Made by a program: the position numbers and the translations under genes
Shown here: piece after piece, positions 9,541 to 57,506 of the stretch
Layout of the letters: the number at the start of each line of letters is the position of its first letter
How positions within the stretch are numbered: the first letter of the stretch is position 1
The notes under the pieces: model-generated
The model's database searches: none
Seen by the model: only the letters and a program-made list of their open reading frames with translations
What the model was told of the DNA's origin: nothing
DNA from: Larkinella terrae
GTDB lineage: Bacteria; Bacteroidota; Bacteroidia; Cytophagales; Spirosomataceae
Length of the DNA stretch: 64,000 nucleotides
Reading direction: 5' to 3'
Assembly (NCBI RefSeq): GCF_009668025.1
Contig: NZ_WJXZ01000009.1
Span: 1 to 64,000 of the forward strand

Positions 9541-9634
9541 GGAGAGGTTAGATGTTAGACAAGAGATATGAGACAATGAGTTGACGAGTGGTTTTATCCC
9601 ACTTCTCTTGTCTATTCTCTCATGTCTCTTCACG
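9541..9634. repeat. Heptad-word hairpin, copy 1 (GAGA class)
   Basis: An imperfect inverted repeat sits between convergent genes. Arm AAGAGATATGAGACAATGAG (9561-9580) faces its near complement at 9611-9630. The left flank continues in about 7-nt words (GAGGTTA, GATGTTA, GACAAGA, GATATGA). It lies at the common 3' end of the hyuA-like and transglutaminase genes and touches the stop codon of the latter. Confidence 0.7.
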
Positions 9635-10604
9635 AATTATAGACCGAAAACGAAGCGATGCAGTCGTATTTCTTTACGCGTGCATTGGTGCGGGAGCGGG
9701 CAAAGATGTGGAGCGTTGACCAGCCGCGAATGGGCACATTGACCTGAAGCTGGTGCTGATTGCCATAGCGCGAAACCGAGACGGGAACTTCTGACCCTTT
9801 GGATTGTCCGAAGCGACTCACCGTACACAAATATTCCAGCGATTGCTCGTTTTGGAGCGTCAATGCCGCCCTTCCCTGAACCCGAAGTTGCCCATCACGC
9901 GGGAAACCGGGGCCAAATCCTAGCTGAAAATACGGATCGTACAGTTTGGGAAACCGGTCAAATTCACCTTTGTTGAGTGGCTGATCGAGAAATTGCCAGC
10001 GGGTTTCGGTTGGAAAATGCTGGGAAATAAACAGTTCCGGCGGGGTCAGGAAATAAAAATCGTTGCTTGCTTCACCCGTCGGTGCCGTGGTAACCGCCCA
10101 AGCCAGGTCCAGCAAATACCATTCATCCTCAATGTTGACGGCGTTCCATTCGTGGTCGACCAGTTTGATGGGATTGCCCGCTTCCTTGTCTTCGGTTCGC
10201 GCATACCCCCGAATGTTGACCGATTCAATACCCGCGCGTTTCAGCAAGTACTTGAACAATAAGGCGTAACCCGTGCACAGACCTTTTCGTTGCCGCAAAA
10301 CCCGGTTGGCATATTCAAGTTCGGAATAATACCGCTGCGAACTCCGGTTCGAGACGGCTTCCTGATCGTAGCGAATGTGGGAGACCATCCAGGCATAAAT
10401 TACCCGGACCTTGTCCATATCCGTTCGGGCTGGACCCGTCAAGTAGTCCGATAAGGTGGCAATGTTCCGGCTGTAAGAATCCGGAGCATTGCGGGCGTAG
10501 GAATCGATGCGGCCGTAATTATCACTTGGTGATACGACAACCGCCGGTTTTAATCCAACGCAGAAAACCAGTACAAGTACGATGGGCAGGAATCGACGAC
10601 ACAT
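9630..10604 (-). CDS. Exported transglutaminase-like protein
   Basis: The protein has 324 residues with an N-terminal hydrophobic signal (about 5-22). The transglutaminase core carries Cys110 in RKGLCTGYALLF, His151 in VDHEWNAV and Asp166 in WYLLDLAWA, the papain-like triad. The overall plan resembles the kyphoscoliosis-peptidase/transglutaminase proteins of Bacteroidota. The C-terminal 120 residues are beta-rich and have no name. Such proteins are mostly cysteine proteases or crosslinkers of the periplasm or cell surface. It is a single gene, convergent with the hydantoinase-like gene across a hairpin repeat. Confidence 0.8.
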   Translation of the reverse strand: MCRRFLPIVLVLVFCVGLKPAVVVSPSDNYGRIDSYARNAPDSYSRNIATLSDYLTGPARTDMDKVRVIYAWMVSHIRYDQEAVSNRSSQRYYSELEYANRVLRQRKGLCTGYALLFKYLLKRAGIESVNIRGYARTEDKEAGNPIKLVDHEWNAVNIEDEWYLLDLAWAVTTAPTGEASNDFYFLTPPELFISQHFPTETRWQFLDQPLNKGEFDRFPKLYDPYFQLGFGPGFPRDGQLRVQGRAALTLQNEQSLEYLCTVSRFGQSKGSEVPVSVSRYGNQHQLQVNVPIRGWSTLHIFARSRTNARVKKYDCIASFSVYNS

Positions 10605-10711
10605 AATCTTTCAACACTTCGTCGATAAAACTGAAATGAACAATCGTTTATTGTCTGCTGAAAAATTATTCCTCTGGTTCGCCTGATAAAATGGAATTTG
10701 AGGATGCGATG

Positions 10712-10744
10712 TATAAAAAAAAAGACCTGCAATTATGCAGGTCT
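10712..10744 (-). terminator. Terminator of the DUF6580 gene
   Basis: On the minus strand AGACCTGC-ataatt-GCAGGTCT is followed by a run of nine T. It lies about 30 bp after the stop of the gene at 10774-11313. Confidence 0.9.
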
Positions 10745-10773
10745 AAGTGGCTTAAACTGATGTTTTATGGGTT

Positions 10774-11313
10774 TTATCGGGCCAGCCGGAATGCCGGAAA
10801 CTGGCGTTGCAATACATAATAACTGCCAAACAAAATTGTGCAGAAGGTCAAATCGCCCAAAACCGCATTCAGAAAGAAGGATTGTCCGTTATAAAATGCC
10901 AGACCCGCTACGTAACTGGCCAAGAGACCTTGTAGCGTCTGCGGATAGAACGAACTGCCGTACCAAACCGCAAAGTTCGTAATCAGGTAGAACAAGGTCG
11001 AAGATAATAACGACGCTGCCACAACCCGGCTGACGGTTATTTTCCGCAACAGAATCAACCCCAGGAACCAGATCAGGATGAATGAACTGTAAACCGCTCC
11101 CATACTGCTGTGAAATCCGATAAAAAAATCACTGATCAACATGGCACCAAGCGGGATCACCAGGCCCAGCCATTTCCGATCGAAGGTGGCCGCGCCGAAC
11201 AGGGCCAGCCCCGCGATGGGCGTGAAATTGTAGGGATGAGGCAATAACCTGCTCAGGGCAGTCAATAAAACGAGGATGGCTAATGACGCCGTACGAATGT
11301 GAATGCGCTTCAT
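10774..11313 (-). CDS. DUF6580-type membrane protein
   Basis: The 179-residue protein has about five transmembrane helices. The family pattern is easy to see: PHPYNFTPIAGLALFGAA, then IPLGAMLISDFFIGFH, then LITNFAVWYGSSFYP, then a C-terminal helix pair. Members look like the membrane substrate-binding (S) components of ECF vitamin transporters and are often found with cobalamin or metal genes, but no such partner and no riboswitch is seen here. The 125-bp gap to the divergent YetF gene is too short for a cobalamin riboswitch. Confidence 0.75.
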   Translation of the reverse strand: MKRIHIRTASLAILVLLTALSRLLPHPYNFTPIAGLALFGAATFDRKWLGLVIPLGAMLISDFFIGFHSSMGAVYSSFILIWFLGLILLRKITVSRVVAASLLSSTLFYLITNFAVWYGSSFYPQTLQGLLASYVAGLAFYNGQSFFLNAVLGDLTFCTILFGSYYVLQRQFPAFRLAR

Positions 11314-11438
11314 GGCGTGAAGTTACAGCTAAAATTAAAAACTGTCAAAATCTGTACTAATTTGGATGCACAATCGCCAATCTTTTTGCACCTGTATTTT
11401 CCGGTTTCACCGTCCGGATCCAAACACTGTTAAACTTC

Positions 11439-11933
11439 ATGGAAAAGATTTTTGGAGTAAACTGGGAGTCGGTATTCATACCCACCACTTCTGTGCTGGA
11501 AATGATCATTCGGGGGACCCTGACCTATTGGTTTATATTTGTATACCTGCGGATTTTCCGGCGCGGCACCGGTCAGCTGAATCTCAGTGATTTACTGTTA
11601 ATTACAATGATTTCGGATGCCGCCCAGAATGCCATGGCGGGGCCGTATGAGTCCGTTACCGAAGGACTTTTCCTGGTTGGGACGCTGGTTTTCTGGGATT
11701 ATTTAATCGACTGGCTTGGGTATCGTTCCGTTTTTCTGAAGAGAATTGTCGAACCGGACCCGGTTTTACTTGTCAAAAACGGACAGCTGATGCGGCAGAA
11801 CATGAAAAAGGAAATGATTTCCGAAGATGAATTGATCAGCATTCTTCGCGAAAACGGCGTGGAAGATTACCACAATGTGAAAATGTGTTATCTGGAAGGT
11901 AGCGGCAACGTCAGCGTAATCGAAAAAAAGTAG
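11439..11933 (+). CDS. DUF421/YetF-family membrane protein
   Basis: The protein has 164 residues with the start at 11439 (MEKIFGVNWESVF). Three N-terminal helices (about 20-38, 48-62, 75-95) are followed by a cytoplasmic domain that opens with PVLLVKNGQLMRQNMKKE and SEDELISILRENGV. This is the typical YetF order. YetF proteins are widespread and are linked to spore or envelope stability in Bacillus, with no known enzyme reaction. The gene ends next to a perfect hairpin at 11939-11978 that separates it from the convergent sigma-factor gene. Confidence 0.8.
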   Translation: MEKIFGVNWESVFIPTTSVLEMIIRGTLTYWFIFVYLRIFRRGTGQLNLSDLLLITMISDAAQNAMAGPYESVTEGLFLVGTLVFWDYLIDWLGYRSVFLKRIVEPDPVLLVKNGQLMRQNMKKEMISEDELISILRENGVEDYHNVKMCYLEGSGNVSVIEKK

Positions 11934-11938
11934 GCTGA

Positions 11939-11978
11939 TTCGATCGTGGAAGAACGCTGGTGAATTTCCACGATCGAA
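11939..11978. terminator. Perfect 13-bp hairpin between convergent genes
   Basis: TTCGATCGTGGAA (11939-11951) pairs exactly with TTCCACGATCGAA (11966-11978). It probably ends both the YetF gene and the sigma-factor gene, although the flanking T run is weak. Confidence 0.6.
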
Positions 11979-11991
11979 GGTTTATCCGCAA

Positions 11992-12549
11992 TTAATTGAG
12001 CTGGTAGAAGATAAGGATGTCTTTCACTTTATCGCGTACTCTTTTCAATCGCATTTTCACGGCGCTGTCTTTTACCTGAAGCATGATGGCCATTTCACGG
12101 ATGTTCATGTTATCCTCGTACTTCATCCGCAGGTACATCGATTCGCAGGGTGCTATTTTTTCCAGGATGATATCGACCAGTTGGTAACGTTCTTCCAGAC
12201 CCGCGTATTCGTTAGTTTCGGCCAGGGTCTTGACGATTTCGCTATCCAGTTCCACGTAATCACTCCGACGGCGGCCAATTTTCATCCGATCCATGCAGTA
12301 GTTGGTCGAAACCGTATAAAGCCAGGTCGAAAAGGTTGACTTTTCCTTGAAATTGTGTAAGCCCGATAAAACCCGCACAAAAATGTCCTGCATAAAATCC
12401 TCTGCATCGACGGGGTCTTTGGTAATCGTCAAACATCGGCGGTATACCTTGTTTGAATAGCGTTTGTAGAGTTGACCGAAATAGTCGCTTTTTTGAGTAG
12501 CAAGGTAATATCGTACCAGCTCCTCGTCGGTGTGACGATTAGTGTTCAT
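11992..12549 (-). CDS. ECF-type RNA polymerase sigma factor
   Basis: The protein has 185 residues. Region 2 is clear: DAEDFMQDIFVRVL, then FKEKSTFSTWLYTVSTNYC and a basic MKIGRRR end. A linker of about 30 residues leads to region 4 (YLRMKYEDNMNIREMAIML, then VKMRLKRVRDKVKD). The family redirects RNA polymerase to stress or nutrient genes. No anti-sigma factor flanks it, which is unusual for the TonB/FecR class, so it may be controlled by expression or by a distant partner. Its own upstream region (12550-12898) is long and AT-rich. Confidence 0.9.
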   Translation of the reverse strand: MNTNRHTDEELVRYYLATQKSDYFGQLYKRYSNKVYRRCLTITKDPVDAEDFMQDIFVRVLSGLHNFKEKSTFSTWLYTVSTNYCMDRMKIGRRRSDYVELDSEIVKTLAETNEYAGLEERYQLVDIILEKIAPCESMYLRMKYEDNMNIREMAIMLQVKDSAVKMRLKRVRDKVKDILIFYQLN

Positions 12550-12898
12550 AAGTTGATAGCTACAGAGAATGTGAACTATTTATTGAACACAAAGAGGAGG
12601 CTGACCCTTTGAGTAATAATAATCGAGCAGATGCTCAACGTTTCAAAACTATTGATTGTCTATACAAATGTCAAGTGGTAACTGTATTTTTATTTGATAA
12701 TTACCATGTCTGTTTATTGGGTCCCAAGCCGTCCAATGCTGGATTAAAGGATGGATATGTGCCCTAAGAAAGGGAATTGATTGCATTATTCGCTACTCCT
12801 TCAAAAACTGTTTTTTATACAATAATCTTCAATAATTTATATCTTTTTTAAGTGACAGAATAGATTGGTAACACAGTAAAAAAATAACAAACCCTGTT
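12550..12898. other. 350-bp AT-rich divergent spacer
   Basis: It lies between the divergently read sigma-factor and DinB-like genes. No gene is supported; the minus-strand ORF at 12837-13034 overlaps the DinB start and is a shadow. It should hold the sigma-gene promoter, but I see no convincing TAnnTTTG pair on that strand. Confidence 0.4.
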
Positions 12899-12906
12899 TA
12901 CCTTTG
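12899..12906 (+). promoter_or_regulatory. -7 promoter element of the DinB-like gene
   Basis: TACCTTTG fits TAnnTTTG exactly and is 54 bp before the start codon. No TTG lies at the right distance upstream, so only the -7 element is called. Confidence 0.5.
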
Positions 12907-12959
12907 CCGAAACAATAGAAAGAGGCTATATTTCCTCTCAAATACAGCACAAAGTTAAA

Positions 12960-13514
12960 ATGGTACAGAACGACGAACTGATACGAATCATTGATTTGCT
13001 CAATACAACGTATGAAGGGGAGGAAGCCTGGCACGGGCCTTCTTTAGTGGAAGTGTTGAGCGGAGTTTCTCCCGAAATGGCGGGTCATCGGCTTACGCCG
13101 AACACCCATTCCATTGCGGAGCTGGTATTCCACATGACAAGCTGGCGGATTTTCTGCGTTAAAAAAATGCAGGGCGATAAAGATTTCGACATTAAAACGC
13201 CGGAGAAAAATTTCGGATCATTTCAGGTGATCGACGATTTTGAATGGGAAGCGCTGCAAATGGAACTCAGCCTGAGTCAGGAGGAACTGGTCAACGAACT
13301 CGATAAACGGGACGACGACGAATTTCTGGAAGACATCGTGCCCGGACGTGACTATACGTATTACGATATGCTGCACGGGGTTATCAACCACGACACCTAC
13401 CATTCAGGCCAGATTTCGCTCATCAAGAAAGGACTGAAATTTAAAGGGCTCGACGAAGATCATGCGCATGACGAGTATGGGCCGAAATACGGCGACGATT
13501 TCGACGATTATTAA
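12960..13514 (+). CDS. DinB/YfiT-superfamily protein with acidic tail
   Basis: The 184-residue protein is a four-helix bundle of the DinB type. Three metal-ligand histidines are visible: His58 (ELVFHMTSWR), His144 and His148 (INHDTYHSGQ). In this superfamily such proteins are thiol-dependent transferases (bacillithiol or mycothiol S-transferases) or stress proteins of unknown reaction. The last 20 residues (about 164-184, GLDEDHAHDEYG then YGDDFDDY) form an acidic His/Asp/Tyr tail that most family members lack; it could bind metal. It is monocistronic or leads into the EVE gene 60 bp downstream. Confidence 0.8.
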   Translation: MVQNDELIRIIDLLNTTYEGEEAWHGPSLVEVLSGVSPEMAGHRLTPNTHSIAELVFHMTSWRIFCVKKMQGDKDFDIKTPEKNFGSFQVIDDFEWEALQMELSLSQEELVNELDKRDDDEFLEDIVPGRDYTYYDMLHGVINHDTYHSGQISLIKKGLKFKGLDEDHAHDEYGPKYGDDFDDY

Positions 13515-13574
13515 TTCGTCTTTCTAATTCTTTCAGCTTTCCAGACATTTTACCCCATTAAACCGCTCATTCCA

Positions 13575-13988
13575 TTGAACTATTGGCTTGTTAAGTCTGA
13601 ACCGGAGTCCTATTCGTGGGACGATTTCGTTGAACAGGGGAAAGCGGTATGGGATGGAGTACGGAATTATGCCGCGCGGAACAACCTGGCCGCTATGCGG
13701 CTGGGCGATCAGGTTCTGTTTTACCACAGTGTGGAGGGCAAACAGGTGGTCGGAATTGCCAAAGTCAGCCATGAGTCGTATCCCGACCCAACGATTCCGG
13801 AAGATCCGCGCTGGGTGGCGGTGGAACTGGAACCCGTTGCACCTTTGCCAAAACCGGTAACGTTGCAACAAATCAAATCCGAACCGTTGTTGCAGAACAT
13901 TCCGTTAATCCGGCTTTCCCGCCTGTCAGTGGTTCCGGTCAGCCCCAACGAGTTCGAGTGTATTTTAGCGTTAGGTCATGCCCAATAA
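13575..13988 (+). CDS. EVE-domain protein
   Basis: The protein has 137 residues with a TTG start at 13575. No ATG is available before the conserved first strand NYWLVKSEPESYSWDDF, so TTG decides the start. The family pattern continues with WDGVRNYAARNNLAAM, then GDQVLFYHS and AKVSHESYPDPT. EVE domains are PUA-like and bind modified bases, such as 5-methylcytosine or hydroxymethylcytosine, in DNA or RNA; the human relative is thymocyte nuclear protein 1. The last 11 bases overlap the start of the methyltransferase gene, so the two are translationally coupled. Confidence 0.9.
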   Translation: MNYWLVKSEPESYSWDDFVEQGKAVWDGVRNYAARNNLAAMRLGDQVLFYHSVEGKQVVGIAKVSHESYPDPTIPEDPRWVAVELEPVAPLPKPVTLQQIKSEPLLQNIPLIRLSRLSVVPVSPNEFECILALGHAQ

Positions 13989-14874
13989 CCGCCTGGATTT
14001 ATTAACCCCCGACAACTGGCCCGCTTATGAATTAATCGACACCGGTGGTTTCGAGAAACTCGAACGCTTCGGTGCGTTTGTTCTCAGTCGGCCGGAGCCG
14101 CAGGCCATCTGGCCCAAGTCACTGCCGGAATCCGAATGGCAGCGACTTCCCAATGCGGTTTTTAAGCGCGACAAAGGGTCTCAGGAGAAAGGGGAATGGT
14201 TGCTTCGCGCCCAGATGGACGAAAAATGGTTCATTCCCTACCAGCAAAAGGGGCTGAATCTGAACTTCAAACTGTCACTTTCGTCGTTTAAACACGTCGG
14301 TATTTTTCCAGAACAGGCCGCAAACTGGCCCTATATTCACCAAAATGTTTCGGCGCTGCCGGTTGAAAAACCGCGTATTCTGAACTTGTTTGCGTACACC
14401 GGAGCCGCATCGCTGGCCGCCCGGCAGGCCGGGGCGGAAGTAACTCATGTCGATGCCGTGCGCCAGGTCATTAGCTGGTCGAGGGAAAACATGGACGCCA
14501 GCGGACTGGATAATATTCGCTGGGTGGTGGAAGATGCGCTCAAGTTCGTGAAACGCGAAGTCCGGCGGGGCAATACCTACCACGGTTTGATTCTGGACCC
14601 ACCTGCCTACGGTCGCGGGCCGGAAGGTGAAAAATGGCTGCTGGAAGAAAACCTTTCCGAATTGCTCCGGCTTTGTTCGGAATTACTGGATAAAGAAAAC
14701 TACTTTCTGATCATTAATCTGTACTCTCTGGGATTTTCCGCTCTGATCCTCGAAAATCTGATGCGCGCCCACTTCGGCGAACGCCCGAATGCCGAATTCG
14801 GCGAATTATACCTGACCGACAGTTTTGCCAAACGATTGCCTTTGGGGGTATTTTATCGATTTGCTTCTCGCTAA
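13978..14874 (+). CDS. Class I SAM methyltransferase of the RlmI/RlmK-like type
   Basis: The protein has 298 residues. It carries SAM motif I (NLFAYTGAAS at 136-145), acidic Asp159 at the end of strand 2, and the DPPAYGRG motif at 207-214. This is the pattern of the 23S rRNA m5C/m2G methyltransferase group (RlmI, RlmK), but the N-terminal PUA domain of RlmI is absent. In this arrangement the preceding gene encodes a separate PUA-like EVE domain and overlaps by 11 bp, which invites a functional link. The target is likely RNA or protein; the exact site is unknown. Confidence 0.82.
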   Translation: MPNNRLDLLTPDNWPAYELIDTGGFEKLERFGAFVLSRPEPQAIWPKSLPESEWQRLPNAVFKRDKGSQEKGEWLLRAQMDEKWFIPYQQKGLNLNFKLSLSSFKHVGIFPEQAANWPYIHQNVSALPVEKPRILNLFAYTGAASLAARQAGAEVTHVDAVRQVISWSRENMDASGLDNIRWVVEDALKFVKREVRRGNTYHGLILDPPAYGRGPEGEKWLLEENLSELLRLCSELLDKENYFLIINLYSLGFSALILENLMRAHFGERPNAEFGELYLTDSFAKRLPLGVFYRFASR

Positions 14875-14961
14875 AGAAGTATATTTGCATTCGTGACCAA
14901 GCGGGTTCAATCAAAATTCGTTAAGCAGGAAACGGCAACTGTCGACGGTTTTCGAAAAAGA

Positions 14962-16134
14962 ATGGGTAAGTTTTTTAGCTTTTATTGTCTGATAATGGGG
15001 TGTTTGCTGGCGGCCTGTTCCGAAGACGACCGTCGTCAAACCCGGATTCCCGTGGTTCCGGAAAATTCGGCGGAAACCCGGAATCAGGCGGCTTTGGAAG
15101 CATTAACCCGGGCCATCAACCAAAACCGCCCGGCCTCGGCTTATGCCAAACGGGCTGCCATTTACATGGACCTCGGAAAGCCGGACGAAGCCATCTCCGA
15201 TATCAACGAAGCCCTTGAACGAGAGAACAATGAGGGGCGTTATCACTTCATCAAAGCGAAAATTCTGCGAGAACGCCAGCAATTTGAGGAAGGGCTGGAA
15301 AGCGCGCTTCGGGCCGAAGGCTTGGGAGTAAACACGCCGGAATTGTACATCGTTTTGGGCGATTTAATGCAGCATGAAAAGCAATTGGATCGCGCCCGGT
15401 TTTACCTGGTGAAGGCGCTGCAAATGGCTCCTTACGAAGGGGAAGCCTTTTACCTGAATGGGCTGGTGGCGGCCAAATCGGGGGATACAACCCGGGCACT
15501 TTCCTACTACAAAAGGGCGCTAGTCTTAAAACCGCGTTTTCTGGAACCTTACGTGCAGTTGTCCATTATTCATTCGGTGCGGGGCGATTATGCCTCGGCC
15601 ATTGCCTACAACAAGCGCGGAGCGGGTTATTTCCCGAACGACCCCGGTTTGTTGTACGCCCTCGGGCATATTTATCAGCAGACCTCCGTATCCGATAGTG
15701 CTTACTTTTTCTACCAGAAAGCACTGCAATTCCAGCCAAGCATGGTACAGGCCCAGTTTCAATCCGGGCTGGTCATGATGAAATTGCGAAATATGCCGCA
15801 GGCTTTGTATCATTTCGACCAGGTGCTAAAGCTGGCGCCGGGCCATCCCCGCGTGCATTACTACATGGCGATGTGTTACGAACAATTTAAGGAGTGGGAA
15901 CAAGCGGGCCGGATGTATGCGTTAGCCATGCAGGAGAATGCGGCCGACCTGCAGGCTTATTACGGGTACTGGCGGGTTCAAAAGCGGAAAACTTACGGCG
16001 AAGGAACGGAACTTCCTTACGAAGAACATCCCTTTCAGCCAACCCGGCCTGGCCAGGTTCTGGACACGACGCGGGTGCGCGTCATGATGATTCAGCCCCG
16101 ATCCCGGTTCGGTCGGGATTCGACGAAAAATTGA
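14962..16134 (+). CDS. TPR-repeat lipoprotein
   Basis: The protein has 390 residues from ATG 14962. A GTG at 14893 would add 23 polar residues before the signal peptide and is rejected. The lipobox LLAAC gives lipidated Cys19. From about residue 50 to 340 the protein is a run of about eight tetratricopeptide repeats, for example ASAYAKRAAIYMDLGKPDEA and LSYYKRALVLKPRFLEPYV. It is a periplasmic or outer-membrane scaffold, with no enzyme motif. The C-terminal 50 residues are Pro/Arg rich. A long hairpin repeat separates it from thrS. Confidence 0.85.
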   Translation: MGKFFSFYCLIMGCLLAACSEDDRRQTRIPVVPENSAETRNQAALEALTRAINQNRPASAYAKRAAIYMDLGKPDEAISDINEALERENNEGRYHFIKAKILRERQQFEEGLESALRAEGLGVNTPELYIVLGDLMQHEKQLDRARFYLVKALQMAPYEGEAFYLNGLVAAKSGDTTRALSYYKRALVLKPRFLEPYVQLSIIHSVRGDYASAIAYNKRGAGYFPNDPGLLYALGHIYQQTSVSDSAYFFYQKALQFQPSMVQAQFQSGLVMMKLRNMPQALYHFDQVLKLAPGHPRVHYYMAMCYEQFKEWEQAGRMYALAMQENAADLQAYYGYWRVQKRKTYGEGTELPYEEHPFQPTRPGQVLDTTRVRVMMIQPRSRFGRDSTKN

Positions 16135-16149
16135 AGGGTGATTACGTAA

Positions 16150-16242
16150 AATGATAAATGTAGAATGATAAATACTAAATGTAAAAGTGAAAGCAATCCC
16201 AAAACTTTTACATTCAGCATTTATCGCTCTACATTTATCATT
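16150..16242. repeat. Heptad-word hairpin, copy 2 (ATGATAA class)
   Basis: Two 38-nt arms (16150-16187 and 16205-16242) pair with about four mismatches around a 17-nt loop. The arm reads as 7-nt words (ATGATAA, ATGTAGA, ATGATAA, ATACTAA, ATGTAAA). It fills the gap between the TPR lipoprotein gene and thrS. The copy at 57.4 kb uses the same words. Confidence 0.85.
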
Positions 16243-18233: not shown

Positions 18234-18306
18234 AAATGAACAATGAATAATGAACAATGAACAAGCTGCTTCAGCCTTTTCATTGTTCATTATTCATTGT
18301 TCATTT
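18234..18306. repeat. Heptad-word hairpin, copy 3 (AATGAAC class)
   Basis: A perfect 28-bp inverted repeat (18234-18261 with 18279-18306) with a 17-nt loop. Each arm is made of 7-nt words: AATGAAC, AATGAAT, AATGAAC, AATGAA. It sits just after the thrS stop codon and before infC. Confidence 0.92.
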
Positions 18307-19000: not shown

Positions 19001-19073
19001 GTTTAAGGTTTATAGTCTATGGTTAAGGTTCCTGTGATCAGCAACTTAAAACCGTATACTATAAACCTTAAAC
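19001..19073. repeat. Heptad-word hairpin, copy 4 (GGTTTAA class)
   Basis: Arms of 24 nt (19001-19024 and 19050-19073) pair with two mismatches. Words are GGTTTAA, GGTTTAT, AGTCTAT, GGTTAAG. It begins 10 bp after the infC stop, and its right arm ends 10 bp before the -7 element of the rpmI promoter. Confidence 0.85.
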
Positions 19074-19130: not shown

Positions 19131-19328
19131 ATGCCAAAAGTAAAAACCAACTCGGGCGCCAAGAAGCGTTTCTCGCTGACCGGCACCGGCAAAATCAAAC
19201 GGAAGCATGCCTTCCATAGCCATATCCTGACGAAAAAGTCGACCAAGCGGAAGCGGAACCTCGTTCACGACACGCTGGTTTTCAAAGGCGATGAGCGTCG
19301 GATTAAGGTAATGCTCGCCCTGGTTTAA
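19131..19328 (+). CDS. rpmI: 50S ribosomal protein L35
   Basis: The protein has 65 residues from [14 protein letters not shown], the invariant L35 N-terminus; the 14 codons upstream in frame are not part of it. It is very basic, with the conserved [14 protein letters not shown] core. L35 sits near the base of the large subunit and is always paired with L20. An internal promoter (19084-19091) may let rpmI-rplT be transcribed separately from infC. Confidence 0.98.
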
Positions 19329-19395
19329 GTACCCGGGATTTCGCGGATCATCCGCACGGTTTCATGTTCAACCCGATGCCAGGCTCTTTAAGTGC

Positions 19396-19457
19396 AATGA
19401 ACAATGAAAAATGAACAATCAACAGTGACCTTCATTGTTAATTATTCATTATTCATT
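19396..19457. repeat. Heptad-word hairpin, copy 5 (AATGAAC class)
   Basis: Arms of 27 nt (19396-19422 and 19431-19457) pair with four mismatches around an 8-nt loop. The words are the same as in copy 3 (AATGAAC, AATGAAA, AATGAAC). It lies in the gap between rpmI and rplT. Confidence 0.85.
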
Positions 19458-19498
19458 CCCTTCATGCCGCCTGTTGTCAAAAACAAACAAAATTAACA

Positions 19499-19843
19499 AT
19501 GCCACGTTCAGTGAACCACGTTGCCTCGCGGGCACGTCGCAAGAAAGTAATGAAGTTGGCCAAAGGGTACTTTGGTCGTCGTAAAAATGTTTGGACGGTA
19601 GCAAAAAACGCGGTTGAAAAAGGCCTCGTTTATGCGTTCCGCGACCGTCGCCAGAAAAAACGCGATTTCCGCGCGCTCTGGATTCAGCGGATCAACGCCG
19701 GTGCGCGTTTGCACGGTGTTTCGTATTCAGCCCTGATGGGCAAAATTCATGCCTCGGGTATTGAATTAAACAGAAAGGTGCTGGCTGATCTGGCCATGAA
19801 TCACCCGGAGGCTTTCAAAGCCGTTGTTGAAACTGTGAAATAA
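19499..19843 (+). CDS. rplT: 50S ribosomal protein L20
   Basis: The protein has 114 residues from [16 protein letters not shown]. The basic N-terminal arm, [10 protein letters not shown] and the C-terminal globular part ([17 protein letters not shown]) are all conserved. L20 is needed early in 50S assembly. In E. coli and Bacillus it also represses its own operon by binding leader RNA upstream of rpmI. Here the two gaps before it are filled by hairpin repeats, so that control could be changed. It is followed by a strong terminator. Confidence 0.98.
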
Positions 19844-30483: not shown

Positions 30484-30622
30484 AGAGACTGTCTAAAATC
30501 CAGATTTTCTCTTCGGTATGCCCCCAACCCCCTAAAGGGGGCTTTGAAATACCGATTAAAGCCCCCTTTAGGGGGTTGGGGGCAAAGCGGAAAAGGAAAA
30601 TCAAAAAATTTAAACAATCTCT
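30484..30622. repeat. CCCCCAACCCCC-core inverted element, copy A
   Basis: A nested inverted repeat of about 139 bp. Outer arms AGAGACTGTCTAAAAT and AAATTTAAACAATCTCT are diverged complements. Inner arms CCCCCAACCCCCTAAAGG and its complement are nearly perfect and enclose GGGCTTTGAAATACCGATTAAAGCCC. It lies between the DUF6970 gene and the GH65 gene. Copy B at 43091-43244 is in the opposite orientation. Confidence 0.9.
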
Positions 30623-33707: not shown

Positions 33708-33896
33708 TTCTGTCAGCGCCGGGCCGTCGCTACGGTCGCTAGACCCTGACAGCGGTTGCATTTAAAAGTAAATAGAAACACTAATTTCAGTCGCTGCCAG
33801 GGTCTGTTGTCCCTAGTGACAGTCCGGTATTGACAGGTTAAGACGTTTAACCGCTGCGTTCAACCGCTGTCAGGGTCTTCCGACCGCTGACAGGGT
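33708..33896. repeat. CCCTGACAGCGG repeat cluster
   Basis: The core AGACCCTGACAGCGGTTG (33741-33758) recurs as an exact inverted copy at 33861-33878. Degenerate copies lie near 33798 (CGCTGCCAGGGTCTG) and 33882-33896 (ACCGCTGACAGGGTT). The cluster fills the gap between the DinB-like gene and pgmB and extends into the pgmB 3' end, supplying its stop codon. Confidence 0.8.
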
Positions 33897-41880: not shown

Positions 41881-41971
41881 TAGTTTATGGTTTTCCGATT
41901 GAAATTTGGGTCTGCTAACCGATTGCAGCTGCAATTGAACCCTAAACCTTAAACGAAGGACCCTAAACTGA
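41881..41971. repeat. Heptad-word hairpin, copy 6 (GTTTAAGG class, degenerate)
   Basis: A left arm beginning AGTTTATGGTTTTCCG pairs imperfectly (about 70%) with the right arm CCTAAACCTTAAACGAAGGA and its continuation. The words are those of copy 4. It lies between the -7 element at 41989-41996 and the start of the DUF2452 gene, so it is in the 5' leader of that transcript. Confidence 0.55.
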
Positions 41972-51072: not shown

Positions 51073-51235
51073 AGACAGATAGATGGGTACAGGGTCAGGA
51101 CCCGAAATGAGCGAATGAAGGTAGTAGTTTTCTGGTTTATTGCCAACTCATCAAATCATATTTTGCCCGAACCCAATTGTTTCCCGGTTTTGCGTACCTT
51201 AAGGTCTCAATTTTTCGGACAGCTTCAACCAACTT

Positions 51236-54124
51236 ATGCGCTATTGCTTGCCGTTTTTTTTGCTTGCCACCCTTTCTGTTAAGGCTCAGACGCTTCCCAT
51301 TTTAGACCAGAATCCAACCCGTTTGCACTGGAACCAGGTGAATACCCCGCATTTTCGGGTTATTTACCCGGAGGGCCTCGACCAGACCGCTCAGCAAACC
51401 GCCCGGCGGCTCGAGCAGGTTTATGAGCCCGTAAGCGCAACCTTAAAAAAGACGCCCCGCAGGCTCTCGGTTATTTTGCAGAATCAAACCATGATCAGTA
51501 ATGGATTTGTGACCATGATGCCGCGTCGATCTGAATTCTACGCGGTGCCTGCGCAGGACCCTTTTCTGGCCGGGACGCTCGGGTGGCTCGATTTACTTGC
51601 CGTTCATGAATTCAGGCATGTCGTTCAATATGACAAAGCCCTGCAGGGATTTACGCGGGCCGCTTACACTTTATTTGGAAATACTGCTTTTTCGGCCCTG
51701 ACGCTGGGCGTGCCGGACTGGTTTTGGGAGGGCGACGCTGTCGGAACCGAAACCGCTCTGACCCGGGCGGGGCGGGGGAGAATGCCGAATTTTGATCTGG
51801 GGATGCGGGCGAATCTGCTGGCGGGACGGCGGTTTTCGTACCAGAAAGCCGTTGGCGGTTCGTACCGGGACAATGTGCCCAATCATTACGTTTTGGGATA
51901 CTTTATGTCTACCAATCTCAAGCGGGAATACGGCGCCGATGCCTGGAGCAATGTTCTGAATCGGTACTACCGGTTTCCCATTTATCCATTTTCATTTTCA
52001 AACAGTGTAAAAAAGACGACGAAATACCGGATTGAAGAGTTGTATCGACGGACAATGACGGACGTGGAAGAAACCTGGCGGAAACAACAGGAGAGTCTAC
52101 GACTGACCGATGCAGTAACTTTTCCGGTGAAAGCTTCCGGGAAAGTCTATACCAATTACCAATATCCGCAGTACATCTCCGACAACGAGGTCATTGCCCT
52201 GAAATCCGGTTTGGGCGACATTGCCCGGTTTGTGATTCTCGATCGAAACGGTCAGGAAAAGAAAGTGTTTGTGCCGGGACTTTTCAATAACCCCGAAATA
52301 ATATCGGTAGCGGCTGGGAAAATCTGCTGGACGGAATTTCGCTACGATGTTCGCTTCGGGCAGCGGATTTACTCCGAAATCAAAGTATACGATCTGAAAA
52401 CCGGTCAATTAAAACGCCTGACCAGTCACAGCCGCTACGCTGTGGCCGCTCTTTCACCCGATGGCTCGAAGCTGGTGGCGGTTCGGAACGACGAATCCTA
52501 TCAAACCCGGCTGGTTATTCTGGACGCAAAAACCGGTCAGGAATTGCGGGTTCTCGACAATCCGGAGAATGATTTTTACGTTCAGCCGCGCTGGCGCGAC
52601 GATAACCGAACACTGGTCGTGGTGACTCGGAAAAAGGAAGGGAAAACCATTCAAACCTTTGATTCTGAAACCAGTGCGAAGCGGAATTTGGTAGCGGTTT
52701 CGGACGAAAACATCAGTCATGTTCAGCCCTGGAAGCAGTATGTTTTCTATAACTCGCCCCGATCCGGCATCGATAATATTTACGTGCTGAACACGGAAAC
52801 CGGTTCGCGGTTTCAGGTAACTTCCCGCCCGCTGGGTGCTTATCATCCCACCGTTTCGGCCGACGGAAAAAGGCTGAGCTTTCACGATTTTCATCATTTT
52901 GGTTACCGGATTGCCGAAATGCCGTTGGACTCGTCAAAGTGGGTTCCCATCAGGCAGGTTAACGATGATTCGGTGCGGTATTTTGGACCACTGGTCGCAC
53001 AGGAACCGGGCGGTTCGCAGGTTCGGTCGGCTTTGGCTGATTCAATTCCCACCTCTGAAAAATACCCTCAAAGCCGGTTTAGTCGCTTGCTCCACGCCTT
53101 CAATTTGTACAGCTGGGGTCCGGTGGTGTCTTCCGACGGTCAAGGCGGAACAGTAGGCCTGCAATCCCAGGATTTGCTCAGCACAACCCAGATCGATGTG
53201 GGAGTGGGGTATGATCAGACCGAACGAACCGTGAATTATTACGGAAATGTGAGTTATCAGGGCCTGTTTCCGATCCTGGACGTCGGATTTCAACGCGGTC
53301 GCCGGTCAACTTCAGTTTATGTGGATCGCCGGGCACCGCTCGATTCACTCCGCAGCGATTCCTGGAATTACAATCAACTGACTGCCGGTTTTCGGATACC
53401 GCTTCAGCTAACGACTTCTAAATACCTTCAAAGTGCTTATTTATCAGCCTATTATGGCTTAATGCAGGTCAGCGGGTATGATTTGCCGGTTCGCCCGGTT
53501 ACGGAGGTCGGTTTTGGTGGATCTTTGCATTCATTGGCTTATTCGGCTTCGTATTCCCGAACCCTCAAGCAAAGCAAACGGGATGTGGCTCCGCGCTGGG
53601 GCCAGACATTTTCGGCGGTTTGGCGGACAACTCCTTTTAACGGGCAATTGAATGGGGAAGTGTGGGGGGCACAGGGTAGCTTGTATTTGCCGGGTTTGGC
53701 AAAACATCATTCATTGCGCTTACGGGCTGGTTATCAACAACAAATGCAGGGTAATTACCGATTTGCTTCCGCCATATTTTTTCCGCGCGGACAGTCGTAT
53801 GTGAGTTACAACCAACTTACCGCAGGAAGTGTGGAATACCGGTTGCCCCTTCTGAACCCGCATTGGTCGATCGGCCGCTGGCTGTACATTCAGAGGGTGA
53901 AGGCCAACGGTTTTTACGATGTGGCGCAGGGAAAAAGCGAGGTACAGGTGCAGGGACAACCGCGCGCCATCTCGGAACAGTTTGCCACAACTGGTCTGGA
54001 TATATCCTTCGTCTTCAACGTCATGCGGCTCCGCACCCCGTTCGAAGCAGGAATCAGAACCATCTACAACCTCAAATCCGGTGAATACCTGATCCAGCCG
54101 CTGGTAATCGGGCTTGGATTCTAG
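51236..54124 (+). CDS. Exported gluzincin/TolB-propeller/outer-membrane-barrel protein
   Basis: The protein has 962 residues with a signal peptide (about 1-17, VKAQ). Residues 35-200 look like a gluzincin protease: HEFRH at 124-128 with Glu165 in VPDWFWEGDAVG as third ligand. Residues about 300-600 are PD40/TolB-type propeller repeats (LSPDGSKLVAVRN, SADGKRLSFHDF). Residues about 640-962 are strand-rich with repeated aromatic ends and look like an outer-membrane barrel. Such proteins are often annotated 'TolB' in Bacteroidota. The three-part layout suggests a surface or periplasmic protease anchored to the outer membrane. Substrate unknown. Confidence 0.72.
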   Translation: MRYCLPFFLLATLSVKAQTLPILDQNPTRLHWNQVNTPHFRVIYPEGLDQTAQQTARRLEQVYEPVSATLKKTPRRLSVILQNQTMISNGFVTMMPRRSEFYAVPAQDPFLAGTLGWLDLLAVHEFRHVVQYDKALQGFTRAAYTLFGNTAFSALTLGVPDWFWEGDAVGTETALTRAGRGRMPNFDLGMRANLLAGRRFSYQKAVGGSYRDNVPNHYVLGYFMSTNLKREYGADAWSNVLNRYYRFPIYPFSFSNSVKKTTKYRIEELYRRTMTDVEETWRKQQESLRLTDAVTFPVKASGKVYTNYQYPQYISDNEVIALKSGLGDIARFVILDRNGQEKKVFVPGLFNNPEIISVAAGKICWTEFRYDVRFGQRIYSEIKVYDLKTGQLKRLTSHSRYAVAALSPDGSKLVAVRNDESYQTRLVILDAKTGQELRVLDNPENDFYVQPRWRDDNRTLVVVTRKKEGKTIQTFDSETSAKRNLVAVSDENISHVQPWKQYVFYNSPRSGIDNIYVLNTETGSRFQVTSRPLGAYHPTVSADGKRLSFHDFHHFGYRIAEMPLDSSKWVPIRQVNDDSVRYFGPLVAQEPGGSQVRSALADSIPTSEKYPQSRFSRLLHAFNLYSWGPVVSSDGQGGTVGLQSQDLLSTTQIDVGVGYDQTERTVNYYGNVSYQGLFPILDVGFQRGRRSTSVYVDRRAPLDSLRSDSWNYNQLTAGFRIPLQLTTSKYLQSAYLSAYYGLMQVSGYDLPVRPVTEVGFGGSLHSLAYSASYSRTLKQSKRDVAPRWGQTFSAVWRTTPFNGQLNGEVWGAQGSLYLPGLAKHHSLRLRAGYQQQMQGNYRFASAIFFPRGQSYVSYNQLTAGSVEYRLPLLNPHWSIGRWLYIQRVKANGFYDVAQGKSEVQVQGQPRAISEQFATTGLDISFVFNVMRLRTPFEAGIRTIYNLKSGEYLIQPLVIGLGF

Positions 54125-54141
54125 TTTTAATTGAGTGTTTT

Positions 54142-54205
54142 AGTGATTTGTGATTGAGTGATTGAATGTCCTAATTATTACTCAACCACTCAATCACAAA
54201 TCACT
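54142..54205. repeat. Heptad-word hairpin, copy 7 (GTGATTG class)
   Basis: Arms of 24 nt (54142-54165 and 54182-54205) pair with one mismatch around a 16-nt loop. Words are GTGATTT, GTGATTG, AGTGATTG. It separates the convergent barrel protein and folD genes, and the right arm touches the folD stop codon. Confidence 0.88.
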
Positions 54206-55086
54206 CAATAATAAACTTCCCCACGTGCGGCCTTCAGCGTATTCTGCATGAGGGAGCAGATGGTCATCAGGCCAACGCCACCAGGAACAGGCGTGATGTA
54301 GCTGGTTTTGGGGGCCACTTCGTCAAATTTTACGTCGCCTTTCAGGGCAAAACCGCTTTTCTTCGAGGCATCCGGCACGCGCTCCAGACCAACGTCGATC
54401 ACGACAGCGCCTTCTTTGACCATATCCCCGGTAATAAATTCCGGCCGACCGAGTGCGGCAATTAGAATATCGGCCGAACGGCAGATTTCGGCAAGGTTTT
54501 GCGTACGGCTGTGCGTCATCGTAACGGTGCAGTTGCCCGGGTAGGTATTGCGCTGCATCAGAATGCTCATCGGTAATCCAACAATCTGGCTGCGACCCAC
54601 CACAACGCAGTGCTTTCCGGCGGTTTCGATGTTATAGCGTTTAAGAATTTCCAGAATTCCCTGCGGAGTGGCCGAGATGTAAGCGGGCAAGCCCTTGGCC
54701 ATGCGCCCGATGTTGATTGGGTGAAAACCGTCGACGTCCTTTTTCGGATCAATGGTCTCCATCACCTTATCGGCCGAAATATGGGCCGGGAGCGGCAGTT
54801 GAACGATCAAACCGTCCATGTCCGGGTTTTCGTTGACGTCCCGGACCGCATGGATTAGTTCCTCTTCGGAAACTGAATCGTCGAATCGGATGAGTGTCGA
54901 ATGCATACCGACTTCTTCGCAGCTTTTCATTTTACTCGCCACGTAGGTTTCGCTCCGGCCCGCCGTGCCGACCAGAATGGCCACTAGGTGAGGAATCTTC
55001 CCGTTATTCGATTTAATTTCAGCGACTTCAGCCGCGAGTTCCTGCTTGATCTGGAGAGAGAGGACTTTTCCGTCGAGGAGTTGCAT
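54205..55086 (-). CDS. folD: Bifunctional methylene-THF dehydrogenase/cyclohydrolase
   Basis: The protein has 293 residues, usual for FolD. It interconverts 5,10-methylene-THF and 10-formyl-THF in one-carbon metabolism. The catalytic lysine region [13 protein letters not shown], then [33 protein letters not shown] (dinucleotide loop) and [15 protein letters not shown] are all conserved. It is cytosolic and a single gene. A -7 element, TACCTTTG, lies 19 bp upstream. Confidence 0.96.
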
Positions 55087-55104
55087 CGTTTTTCAAGAAA
55101 AACG

Positions 55105-55112
55105 CAAAGGTA
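55105..55112 (-). promoter_or_regulatory. -7 element of folD
   Basis: TACCTTTG on the minus strand, exact TAnnTTTG, 19 bp before the start codon. No TTG at -33. Confidence 0.5.
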
Positions 55113-55249
55113 ATGGTTTTGTCCAGACGTGAGCCCCGTTTTCCGACCGAATATTTTAAAGACTGGCTGGTTTTTGGGCGAAAAATTCAGTATACTTGTA
55201 AAAACCGGATTGTGACTAATTAAATTTTCCGGGTCCATTCATCGATTTA

Positions 55250-55618
55250 ATGAAGTTTTACCGAACCATACTGCAACTGATCTGCCTCCTTCTGATGGGG
55301 TGGATGGCTGGCTTCCTGGCCGGGTTGCCCGACGCGCCCTGGCCGGAACTGGCGGTGAAAGGTGTTACGGTCGAAGCTTCGTCGGTTCGGGAAATGACGG
55401 ATCATCTGACGGACGGTTTGCCCCGGCTGCTGGTTCACGAAGCCATTGTGGCACCCACGGTTTCGCACCCGATTCCCCTGCTCTTTTTTTGCATTATTCC
55501 TACGGTTTGGGTTCTGGTCAATTGCGCGAGACTGACACGCCTGCAAAGGATTGCTTGCTACTTTTTCGCCTATTTCCGACGACTTTTCGGGCATTCGATT
55601 GCCATCAACGCTCCCTGA
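55250..55618 (+). CDS. Small two-helix membrane protein, unknown
   Basis: The 122-residue protein has two hydrophobic helices, about 7-25 and 75-95, with a polar loop between them (about 28-70) and a basic tail. The MKFYRTILQLICLLLMGW start is signal-like. No family is recognised. It is read in a different frame from the YitT gene 131 bp further on. It could be a real small protein or an unused frame. Confidence 0.4.
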   Translation: MKFYRTILQLICLLLMGWMAGFLAGLPDAPWPELAVKGVTVEASSVREMTDHLTDGLPRLLVHEAIVAPTVSHPIPLLFFCIIPTVWVLVNCARLTRLQRIACYFFAYFRRLFGHSIAINAP

Positions 55619-55749
55619 CATCCCGGCATTCCGATACATTCTTCGATCTTCTTTGCGCCAATTCGGACCGTCATCAAGCTGGCGGTAAGCGATTGACGTA
55701 TTTACAACTCGCTATTATTCAGTTTATTATCCACAAACCAACCACAAAT

Positions 55750-56640
55750 ATGGTAAAGACAAGAATTTTACGGGCTAAGAATTCGGCCCTGTTTCGGGAA
55801 ATAAAAGAAGCGATTTTCATCATTCTGGGCGTACTCAGTGCGGGCATGGGGCTGAAAGGGTTTTTGCTACCGAACGACTTTTTGGACGGGGGCGTCATCG
55901 GTATATCGCTTTTGCTCCAGATAAAAACCGGTATCGATCTGGCTATCCTGGTTGTTATCGTCAACATTCCCTTTATCTGGATGGGATTCCGGCAGGTGTC
56001 CTGGGTATTTGCGCTAAAAACCGCTCTGGGAATCGGACTGCTGGCGATCTGTCTGGCGTTTATTCCGTACCCAATGGTAACGACTGACAAATTACTGATT
56101 GCGGTTTTTGGCGGTTTTTTCCTTGGCGCGGGCATAGGGCTGGCCATGCGGGGGGGCGGGGTTCTGGACGGAACGGAGGTACTCGCCATTTACATCAGCC
56201 GCCGGTCGTTCCTCTCGGTTGGGGATGTCATTATGGTCATCAACGTGCTGATTTTTGGTTCAGCCGCCATTTTCATCAACGTGGAAACCGCCCTGTACGC
56301 GATGCTGACTTACCTGGCCGCGTCAAAAACCGTTGATTTCATCATTCATGGTATTGAGGAGTACATCGCGGTCATGATCGTTTCGGATCGTCACGAGGAG
56401 GTGCGCCAGCTTATTACGGAAGAACTCGCGAGGGGTGTAACGGTTTTGAAAGGGGAGAAAGGATTTGGTAAACGCGGGATGCGCGACAACGACATCAACA
56501 TTCTGTATGCTGTTGTTACTCGTCTGGAAATCACTCGATTAAAGGATAAAATCAGCGAAGTGGATGAAAAAGCTTTTCTAATCGAGCACAGTATTGCGGA
56601 CGTGAAAGGCGGAATGATCAAACCCCGCCCTTTGCATTAA
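55750..56640 (+). CDS. YitT-family membrane protein (DUF161/DUF2179)
   Basis: The protein has 296 residues from ATG 55750 (MVKTRILRAKNSALF). The open frame upstream to 55300 runs over other DNA and has no homologous residues. There are five or six helices (about 18-160), with GFLLPNDFLDGGVIGISLLL and AMRGGGVLDGTEVLA, the conserved YitT loops. A C-terminal DUF2179 domain of about 90 residues follows (VTVLKGEKGFGKRGMRDN). The family is widespread with no established substrate. It ends 23 bp inside the convergent sirtuin gene. Confidence 0.88.
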   Translation: MVKTRILRAKNSALFREIKEAIFIILGVLSAGMGLKGFLLPNDFLDGGVIGISLLLQIKTGIDLAILVVIVNIPFIWMGFRQVSWVFALKTALGIGLLAICLAFIPYPMVTTDKLLIAVFGGFFLGAGIGLAMRGGGVLDGTEVLAIYISRRSFLSVGDVIMVINVLIFGSAAIFINVETALYAMLTYLAASKTVDFIIHGIEEYIAVMIVSDRHEEVRQLITEELARGVTVLKGEKGFGKRGMRDNDINILYAVVTRLEITRLKDKISEVDEKAFLIEHSIADVKGGMIKPRPLH

Positions 56641-57319
56641 GGATTAATTGCTCGGCCAGCCGCGACAAACCGGTCGTGGCTGGTTCGGGTATAAACGTCA
56701 GATTGGGCCGGGGACGGATTTCCGGAACGTTTGGATCAACCACATAAATAGGGGTTCGGGGCCGGACGTAATCGATCAATCCGGCTGCGGGATAAACCGC
56801 CATCGACGTGCCCACAATGATCAGAATATCAGCCGCATACGTCAATTCGACGGCATCTTCCATCATCGGTACGGCCTCGCCAAACCAGACAATATGCGGG
56901 CGAAGCTGCGAGCCTTTTTCGCACCGGTCTCCGCGTTTTAATTCCCAGCCTTTGATGTCGTAAACCAGGTTCTCATCCCGGGTACTCCGCGATTTATACA
57001 ACTCGCCGTGGAGATGAACTACCTTTTTTGAACCGGCCTTCTCATGCAGATTGTCCACGTTCTGGGTGATAACCGTAACATCGTAATAGTTCTCCAGTTC
57101 TTTTAACGCCAGATGCCCGGCGTTGGGTTTGGCATCGAGAGCCTGTTTCCGTCGCTGGTTGTAAAATTCCAGAACCAGATCCGGATCTTTCGCCCAGCCT
57201 TGCGGGGTGGCCACATCTTCCACGCGGTGGTTTTCCCACAAACCGTTGGAGTCGCGGAACGTTTTCAACCCACTTTCCGCACTGATTCCGGCACCGGACA
57301 GAACAACAATTTTTTTCAT
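56618..57319 (-). CDS. cobB: Sirtuin NAD-dependent protein deacylase
   Basis: The protein has 233 residues. It removes acyl groups from lysine using NAD. NAD motifs are GAGISAESG (9-17) and QNVDNLH (86-92); the catalytic His is 104 (VHLHGEL). Tyr53 and Arg56 in EFYNQRRKQ are the pair that lets class III sirtuins take succinyl or malonyl lysine. The zinc-binding Cys tetrad is missing: only Cys133 (DRCEKGSQ) remains, as in other Bacteroidota sirtuins I recall. It overlaps the YitT end by 23 bp. Confidence 0.93.
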   Translation of the reverse strand: MKKIVVLSGAGISAESGLKTFRDSNGLWENHRVEDVATPQGWAKDPDLVLEFYNQRRKQALDAKPNAGHLALKELENYYDVTVITQNVDNLHEKAGSKKVVHLHGELYKSRSTRDENLVYDIKGWELKRGDRCEKGSQLRPHIVWFGEAVPMMEDAVELTYAADILIIVGTSMAVYPAAGLIDYVRPRTPIYVVDPNVPEIRPRPNLTFIPEPATTGLSRLAEQLILNAKGGV

Positions 57320-57383
57320 TTCGTTAGGAGCTGGTTCCGCAAGTTACGCATTTATTCAGGCGCAAGAAACGCCCAAAAGTTCA

Positions 57384-57412
57384 TAAAAAAACCACTCGGC
57401 CGAGTGGTTTTT
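57384..57412 (-). terminator. Terminator downstream of topA
   Basis: AAAACCACTCGG/CCGAGTGGTTTT is a perfect palindrome; on the minus strand it is followed by a run of seven T. It lies 92 bp after the topA stop, beyond hairpin copy 8. Confidence 0.85.
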
Positions 57413-57416
57413 AGGT

Positions 57417-57506
57417 AATGATAAATATAAAATGCCAACGCCAAATGTAAAAGTGAGTTCATATGTAACTTCTACATTTGGCGTTGGACATTTTACATTT
57501 ATCATT
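57417..57506. repeat. Heptad-word hairpin, copy 8 (ATGATAA class)
   Basis: Arms of 38 and 39 nt (57417-57454 and 57468-57506) pair with four differences around a 13-nt loop. The words match copy 2 (ATGATAA, ATGTAAA) with a central CCAACGCCAA. It lies in the 3' untranslated part of topA, touching its stop codon. Confidence 0.85.

Follow-up and report, generated by a model that had tools for sequence, protein, structure and literature searches.

Hairpins built from short repeated words at gene ends of Larkinella: probable dispersed families of palindromic repeats

Short tandem heptamer repeats (short tandemly repeated repetitive sequences, STRR) are known from cyanobacteria. Here we describe hairpins whose arms are built from words of about 7 nt. 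Eight of them lie in a 64,000-nt stretch of Larkinella terrae DNA (contig NZ_WJXZ01000009.1, positions 1 to 64,000; the window), where an earlier note had pointed them out from the sequence. According to PMC4679880, heptamer repeats of the word TAACTGA occur in Beggiatoaceae, cyanobacteria and five Bacteroidetes, and in the Guaymas Maribeggiatoa they form direct arrays mostly upstream of start codons (one inverted among 170 sets). The same paper cites Mrazek et al. (2007) for heptamers as the most abundant long simple-repeat class in most genomes rich in such repeats, with no agreed cause. The Larkinella hairpins resemble the TAACTGA and STRR repeats in their 7-nt unit, mostly intergenic position, scattered distribution and sets divided by related heptamers, but their words pair up across inverted arms close to stop codons instead of forming direct unpaired arrays. 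To the earlier note this paired-arm form looked distinct from tandem arrays, and this was borne out: words of the GACSATT family (GACCATT/GACGATT) were present on both strands in 20/20 stretches, hand-chosen among the motif locations of the source genome.

Three other systems are comparable. Repetitive extragenic palindromes (REP) and bacterial interspersed mosaic elements (BIME), with the GTAG and CGTC super-families, are also dispersed extragenic palindromes in species-specific families; the Larkinella hairpins differ in their far longer word-built arms, the many families per genome and their private loops. Intrinsic terminators share the stable stem directly past a stop codon, in convergent gaps too, but the Larkinella hairpins have long periodic arms, are dispersed as families and show no TTTT enrichment. 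Quasi-palindromes formed by template switching are alike in spacer inversion and partial arm homogenisation (PMC8604942, PMC8794818), but that process is local and leaves the same words at many loci, and the family swaps described below, unexplained. Among the matches listed from the open-licence literature, no title or beginning of an abstract described hairpins of this kind.

Congeners differed in the copy number of each family, and the same gene end was held by different families or by none at approximately 90-95% identity. The arms are family words in inverted orientation, and the loops of a family are mostly unrelated, some being inverted between orthologues. We consider it somewhat more probable than the alternatives taken together (roughly 0.58) that these hairpins are dispersed multi-family palindromic repeats that colonise the 3' ends of genes, both in Larkinella and, using different words, in certain further Bacteroidota, the words having been laid down by some dispersal process and then reworked by slippage and template switching.

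The eight inverted repeats of the window are the following.

9541..9634, GAGACAA-class hairpin between convergent genes (hydantoinase/oxoprolinase-like on the plus strand, transglutaminase-like on the minus strand; Pfam), 4 nt past the first stop
16150..16242, ATGATAAATGTAA-class hairpin, 16 nt past the stop of a tetratricopeptide repeat gene and upstream of thrS; loop of 15 nt
18234..18306, AATGAAC-class hairpin, 5 nt past the thrS stop and ahead of the infC leader (thrS and infC by NCBIfam)
19001..19073, GGTTTAA-class hairpin, 11 nt past the infC stop and ahead of rpmI (19131-19328; Ribosomal_L35p), ending just before TATCTTTG
19396..19457, AATGAAC-class hairpin between rpmI and rplT, within a conserved CAGGC..GCCTG leader
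41881..41971, decayed GGTTTAA-class inverted repeat between divergent genes (DUF2452 on the minus strand, AMP-binding on the plus strand); fold z -4.3
54142..54205, GAGTGATT-class hairpin (period 8) with convergent genes on either side; it ends at the folD stop
57417..57506, ATGTAAAAGT-class hairpin at the 3' terminus of the minus-strand gene topA (its stop is at 57505; Pfam), beside a classical AAAAAACCACTCGG..CCGAGTGGTTTTT stem

All eight fold, most of them with gap-free stems. Their minimum free energy (MFE) was below that of 100 dinucleotide shuffles in each case (8/8), with z from -4.3 to -12.1 in seven and the weakest excess, only -1.9, in 9541-9634. Self-matching of the 5' half at lag 7 was significant (p<0.05) in 7/8; the exception was 54142-54205, which has period 8 (lag-8 match 0.56), and in 57417-57506 lag 6 (0.58) exceeded lag 7 (0.50). 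The weakest copy was 41881-41971, with a lag-7 p of 0.048 and missing from every gap-free stem list. Four of the hairpins lie around thrS, infC, rpmI and rplT.

The source genome (G000; 7.85 Mb, 22 contigs) was scanned in an 864-kb sample, made up of 40 stretches of 20 kb and the window, and compared with eight Larkinella genomes (G001-G008). The sample contained 107 intergenic stems, against 0 after one shuffle of the intergenic DNA. A second scan over 982 kb, including the eight relatives (partly orthologous and so not independent), gave 116 intergenic stems vs. 1 after shuffling. It also returned 12 stems lying mostly within called open reading frames, with a best period of 7 in 6 of the 11 arms tested there, so such stems are not strictly confined to intergenic DNA. 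In G000, 82 arms of 22 nt or more matched themselves at lag 7 (0.46, z 17.4) and lag 14 (0.45, z 13.0), with minor peaks at lag 8 (z 2.5) and lag 10 (z 2.6); when each linked family contributed a single arm (n=15), z was 3.0 at lag 7 and 2.9 at lag 8. Period 7 therefore dominates, as the earlier note had proposed, but not throughout, since the unit is 8 for GAGTGATT and 10 for GCGGAGTTAA and CAGGGTTTAT. With a large excess of stems over shuffled DNA and a lag-7 periodicity across the sample, the observation is confirmed and is stronger than first stated. None of the outcomes that the earlier note would have taken as a refutation (no excess of elements, no 7-nt periodicity above shuffled sequence, all copies plain unrelated terminators) occurred. 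Arms of at least 22 nt were selected for the set of word hairpins used below (n=52; 47 from G000 and 5 from G003). The 47 copies in 864 kb correspond to approximately 54 per Mb, which by extrapolation places word hairpins at hundreds of gene ends per genome.

The 112 intergenic stems of G000 were grouped into families by shared 12-mers, a linkage that also returned classical terminators. The word classes of the window are recurrent families:

AATGAAC/AATTAAC, 17 linked hairpins, two of them AATATCGAAC-like
GAGACAA, 5 linked
GGTTTAC/CGGTTTT, 5 linked
GACCATT/GACGATT (GACSATT), 4 linked
GAGTGATT, period 8, 4 linked
ATGGTTAAA, 4 linked
GGGCATA, 3 linked
CAGGGTTTAT, period 10, 3 linked

The earlier note had called the vocabularies interchangeable. 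They are not freely so; the words belong to families with their own copy number in each species. The two-word GAC(C/G)ATT motif GACSATTGACSATTGAC occurred 71 times in G000, 45 in G006, 10 in G002 and 4 in G005, and 0 times in G001, G003, G004, G007 and G008, while its reversed control was absent from all nine genomes. TAGACAAGAGA was found throughout the genus (64 in G000, range 1-87 over the nine genomes; reversed control 0-1 each). The highest counts in other searched genomes of the taxonomic family were 18, 16 and 10, but reversed controls reached 14 there, so low counts outside Larkinella carry no meaning. The exact 14-mer AATGAACAATGAAC (46 in G000, its reversal 0) was present in 18/247 genomes of a phylum sample, more than once only in G000 (46), G128 (6) and G097 (3). 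The GAGTCAA vocabulary, taken from a Mucilaginibacter locus, was absent in G000 and present in 13/395 phylum genomes, its highest copy numbers (13, 9 and 6) occurring in three genomes that belong to a single different genus. Around infC, 80 loci gave 37 hairpins whose arms reached 20 nt or more, 13 of them periodic at 0.6 or more and 9 of these with period 7. Two of the nine were from Larkinella; the rest included Spirosoma, Hymenobacter (GCTGTTA words) and a Mucilaginibacter metagenome-assembled genome, and the words outside Larkinella were mostly unlike those of G000.

Word hairpins were located at gene ends. A stop codon lay within 25 nt in 39/52. Those in tandem gaps (n=32) began a median of 6.5 nt past the upstream stop and 35.5 nt short of the following start codon, and 24/32 were nearer the stop than the start (p 0.007). 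Convergent gaps held 15/52 word hairpins, compared to 71/475 among all gaps of at least 80 nt (p 0.016), and divergent gaps were depleted (p 0.006 against the same set). Both biases held against either gap set when all 112 G000 stems were considered. All three frames were stopped within the 5' arm in 19/47 arms vs. 9.8 in shuffles; this excess is real but mostly expected, because the period is not a multiple of 3.

The orthologous gaps of the nine Larkinella genomes, compared by eye, often held the same family reordered, another family, or nothing. The architecture thus remains constant while the word changes, as the earlier note had stated for the copies of the window, and this is seen also between species in the same gap. 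The 9541-9634 gap carried the GAGACAA class in G001, G002, G003, G005 and G008, the GACGATT class in G006, a non-word palindrome in G004 and none in G007. The 16150-16242 hairpin was present in G002, G005 and G008 (with extra inserts in G005 and G008) and absent from G001, G003, G004, G006 and G007. Between infC and rpmI, GGTTTAA-type words were found in G000, G002, G004 and G008, AAGGGAG-type words in G005 and G006, and other stems in G001, G003 and G007. Between rpmI and rplT, AATGAAC was found in G000 and G006 and AGTTAAG-type words in G001, G002, G003, G004, G005 and G008, with none in G007. The 54142-54205 gap held the GAGTGATT class in G002, G004 and G008, a classical terminator in G001 and G003 and other words in G007, while G005 and G006 lacked an anchor.

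Four further gene ends followed the same pattern. At the first, G008, G004 and G007 were empty, G002 and G006 had GACGATT, G005 had GAGACAA and G003 another stem (G000 and G001 were unresolved). At this gene end, the stop codon of the upstream gene (TGA) falls within a word in G002 and G006 (frame by reading). The second, between a convergent pair, measured 9 nt in G008 and held GACSATT in G005, GGTTTTC in G002 and AAGGGAG in G006; each hairpin fills the space between the coding ends, the flanks of the species with no hairpin, with GACSATT and with GGTTTTC are 95% identical, and G000 and G004 have other neighbours. The third had a GACSATT hairpin in G005 vs. classical stems in G002, G008 and G004. 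The fourth had GACSATT in G002, G000 and G006, GAGACAA in G005 and G008, and a non-word stem in G004. A few orthologous gaps showed, by eye, word arrays in a single arm. The possibility that a distant donor had supplied the replacements was considered and rejected: flank identities at five swapped sites were 92-96%, not lower than elsewhere (by eye).

A 265-kb comparison of G002 with G008 (91.7% identity in its aligned portion) covered 26 anchored word-hairpin sites; 20 shared a 9-mer, 5 did not and 1 was empty. Orthologous stem pairs whose loops reached 9 nt numbered 17. The loop was inverted in 6 of them (including one non-word palindrome), forward in 2 (one at threshold, between different words) and unalignable in 9. 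The clearest inversions were at 165950 (0.94 inverted vs. 0.53) and 190414 (1.00 vs. 0.50). Repeats that match none of the families tested thus appear to rewrite gene ends within the time that separates sister species. Because swaps, loop inversions and an empty site can be seen at 92% identity, it could be traced event by event, in culturable bacteria, how hairpins and heptamer repeats arise and spread.

The arms are polar, the strand entering the loop being purine-rich (GGG:CCC 51:1, GAG:CTC 102:5 and TGA:TCA 186:24 in the 52 word hairpins). Loops within a family were unrelated by eye, and every copy seems to have a loop of its own; 12 GACSATT loops no shorter than 15 nt had a mean pairwise local score of 4.71 vs. 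4.47 shuffled (maximum 11 vs. 8). A GGCTGACGCA motif at the loop edge is common to several otherwise unrelated word families (L035, L042, L187, L193) and is present in both G002 and G008 where the outer words differ. In 21 GACSATT hairpins, the variable C/G position agreed in register between the arms in 52/75 words (p 0.001 vs. 0.5), compared to 0.51 between hairpins and 0.46 in shifted register. At L261, one arm is a perfect tandem GACGATT array and the opposite arm is not. As the GACSATT arms are related in register yet far from identical, and one arm alone may be a clean array, word-by-word slippage with partial conversion fits better than a single snap-back copy.

On the reading as dispersed repeats, a dispersal process would lay family words at a gene end, replacing a few to approximately 100 bases between the stop codon and the next conserved element. 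One-word slippage and template switching between the arms would then extend the arms, reorder their words, make the two arms partly alike and turn the loop around. Selection would retain the hairpins chiefly at 3' ends; there, words frequently provide stop codons, and the stem may replace a classical terminator by acting in both directions as a 3'-end or barrier element. Such a 3'-end function is plausible from the position of the hairpins and their replacement of classical stems. More tentatively, the propagating entity might be a vocabulary with a grammar instead of a fixed unit: fixed-length words in inverted pairs, each copy with its own word order, loop and flanks, and vocabularies that burst, vanish and compete for gene ends as exchangeable bidirectional 3'-end elements. 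This is a possibility that we would not favour at present.

The position at 3' ends would also suit ordinary terminators of the lineage, their stems made and kept complementary by template switching during replication and their words being slippage products without any dispersal. Template switching is known to build hairpins, homogenise arms and invert spacers (PMC8794818, PMC8604942), and classical terminators do fill the same gaps in congeners (at 54.1 kb in G001 and G003, and at the L269 site in G002 and G008). A word hairpin and a classical terminator shared only 2/42 word-hairpin gaps vs. 5.8 expected (stratified P 0.042), but this avoidance is suggestive only, with small numbers, a terminator rule of our own making and no significance in either gap type taken by itself. 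The mean number of T in the 10 nt past the arm was slightly raised (3.5 vs. 2.9 in controls), but TTTT was not enriched there (9.6% of 104 flanks vs. 8.8% of 3280 controls), and non-Watson-Crick pairs on the sense strand of tandem-gap word hairpins showed no G-U preference (GT 29, AC 38). Selection at the RNA level was rejected on this comparison, which gave G-U vs. A-C counts of 71 vs. 73 for all stems. The same words stand at many unlinked loci, with 71 vs. 0 copies between congeners, so dispersal is needed, and terminators made purely in place appear unlikely.

A mobile palindrome of known type, either REP/BIME moved by a REP-associated tyrosine transposase (RAYT) or a miniature inverted-repeat transposable element (MITE) moved by an insertion sequence transposase, would account for dispersed palindromic families with species-specific copy number, and G000 has three Y1_Tnp genes. 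However, two of these loci were without a stem at score 11 within 1.5-kb flanks, and the third had a GAGACAA-like stem approximately 1.1 kb off and a non-word stem. The tags GTAG (1/47) and CGTC (3/47) were found at hairpin ends below the control rates (201/2460 and 242/2460). REP stems measure 5-13 bp (PMC3733652), compared to selected arms of at least 22 nt here, and the loops are private. Rfam 15 at gathering score gave 0 matches in the window. Integron attC sites were considered as well; the ends look to be in opposite orientation. Membership of REP/RAYT and Rfam families was rejected on these tag, stem, flank and Rfam results; the hairpins are REP- and MITE-like in dispersal and outside the REP families by the tests made, which leaves a known mobile type distinctly improbable. 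We give very little credence to templated repeat synthesis, in which a reverse transcriptase or telomerase-like enzyme would copy words from a short RNA template that are then joined at broken or exposed gene ends. The perfect one-arm array at L261, the constant word length with family-specific sequence and the strong strand polarity of the arms agree with it, but words vary at fixed positions within one array and slippage yields the same pattern. The earlier note had left the origin of the arms between templated expansion, a mobile element and RNA-guided copying: mobile dispersal is now favoured, though without a transposase or target-site duplication, and nothing specific to RNA-guided or templated synthesis was found in an enzyme search limited to Y1_Tnp.

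Several results weigh against dispersed families as set out here. No dispersal enzyme was found in that Y1_Tnp search, the three genes having no adjoining family hairpins, and no target-site duplication was seen at presence/absence pairs, which were read by eye and not systematically. At L269, a native gap with a classical stem was replaced. The empty state may or may not be ancestral, and alleles may have been imported by recombination. In the G002/G008 comparison, 27/190 non-orthologous word-hairpin pairs also share a 9-mer, so some of the 20 'same' sites may not be one inherited copy, and one of them has only the GGCTGACGCA core in common; among the 5 'different' sites, one is by eye non-word and one has GGTTT-like words on both sides. 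The convergent excess and the divergent depletion of word hairpins are not significant against all gaps (176/935, p 0.10, and p 0.14 respectively), so the gene-end claim rests on stop-codon distance. Same-class neighbours within one stretch numbered 19/92 pairs vs. 13.6 expected (p 0.09); local clustering is not significant, and with classes over-merged by 11-mer linkage, local spread is not claimed. Loop inversion was rarer in the 64-kb region of the nine species, most of which are more distant than G002 and G008: among 91 pairs, a strict rule gave 1 inverted, 2 forward, 54 unalignable and 34 with loops too short, and a looser score 4 inverted vs. 9 forward. GACSATT arms share a 21-mer in 3/21 hairpins vs. 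37/210 pairs from different loci; with the 52/75 C/G agreement, this makes arm-to-arm copying alone insufficient. Arm scores within vs. between hairpins were 0.83 vs. 0.71 for AATGAAC, 0.58 vs. 0.51 for GAGACAA, 0.67 vs. 0.48 for GGTTT and 0.63 vs. 0.63 for GACCATT.

Other features were seen beside the word hairpins. TATCTTTG, which follows the 19001-19073 hairpin, fits the Bacteroidota -7 consensus, TAnnTTTG. In the rplT leader (window 19330-19499), the blocks CGCGG..CCGCG and CAGGC..GCCTGTTGTCAAAAAC are conserved around the hairpin in nine congeners and resemble an autoregulatory leader. A coding sequence of G002, G008, G006 and G000 (L263, L270, L272, L273) seems to contain a GACSATT-type hairpin in frame (frame read by eye in G002). 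At the same locus, G004 carries no more than a short stretch of related sequence, from which the family may have originated, and G005 gave no match. MITE-like inserts of approximately 230-350 nt were found in G002 contig C11 near 536800 (L218) and near 615400 (L222) and in G008 contig C244 near 648000; one lies in a gap, one in a word-hairpin arm and one inside a GACCATT hairpin, with ends CAGTACTGTA(T/C)GAAGGAT.

Two further repeat families were observed. A non-periodic palindrome family (GCCCCCAACCCCCTAAAGGGGGC, TGCCCCCAACCCCCTAAAGGGGGCTT) is seen at window 30514-30589 and has 13 copies in the 864-kb sample. The outermost arm bases of the TGCCCCCAACCCCCTAAAGGGGGCTT palindromes vary among several copies yet remain paired, and one such palindrome is nested in the loop of a G005 word hairpin and another stands beside one in G002. 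An inverted-repeat family on CCCTGTCAGCGGT / CCCTGACAGCGGT occurs at window 33710-33836, L039 and L041, with three linked copies in the sample.

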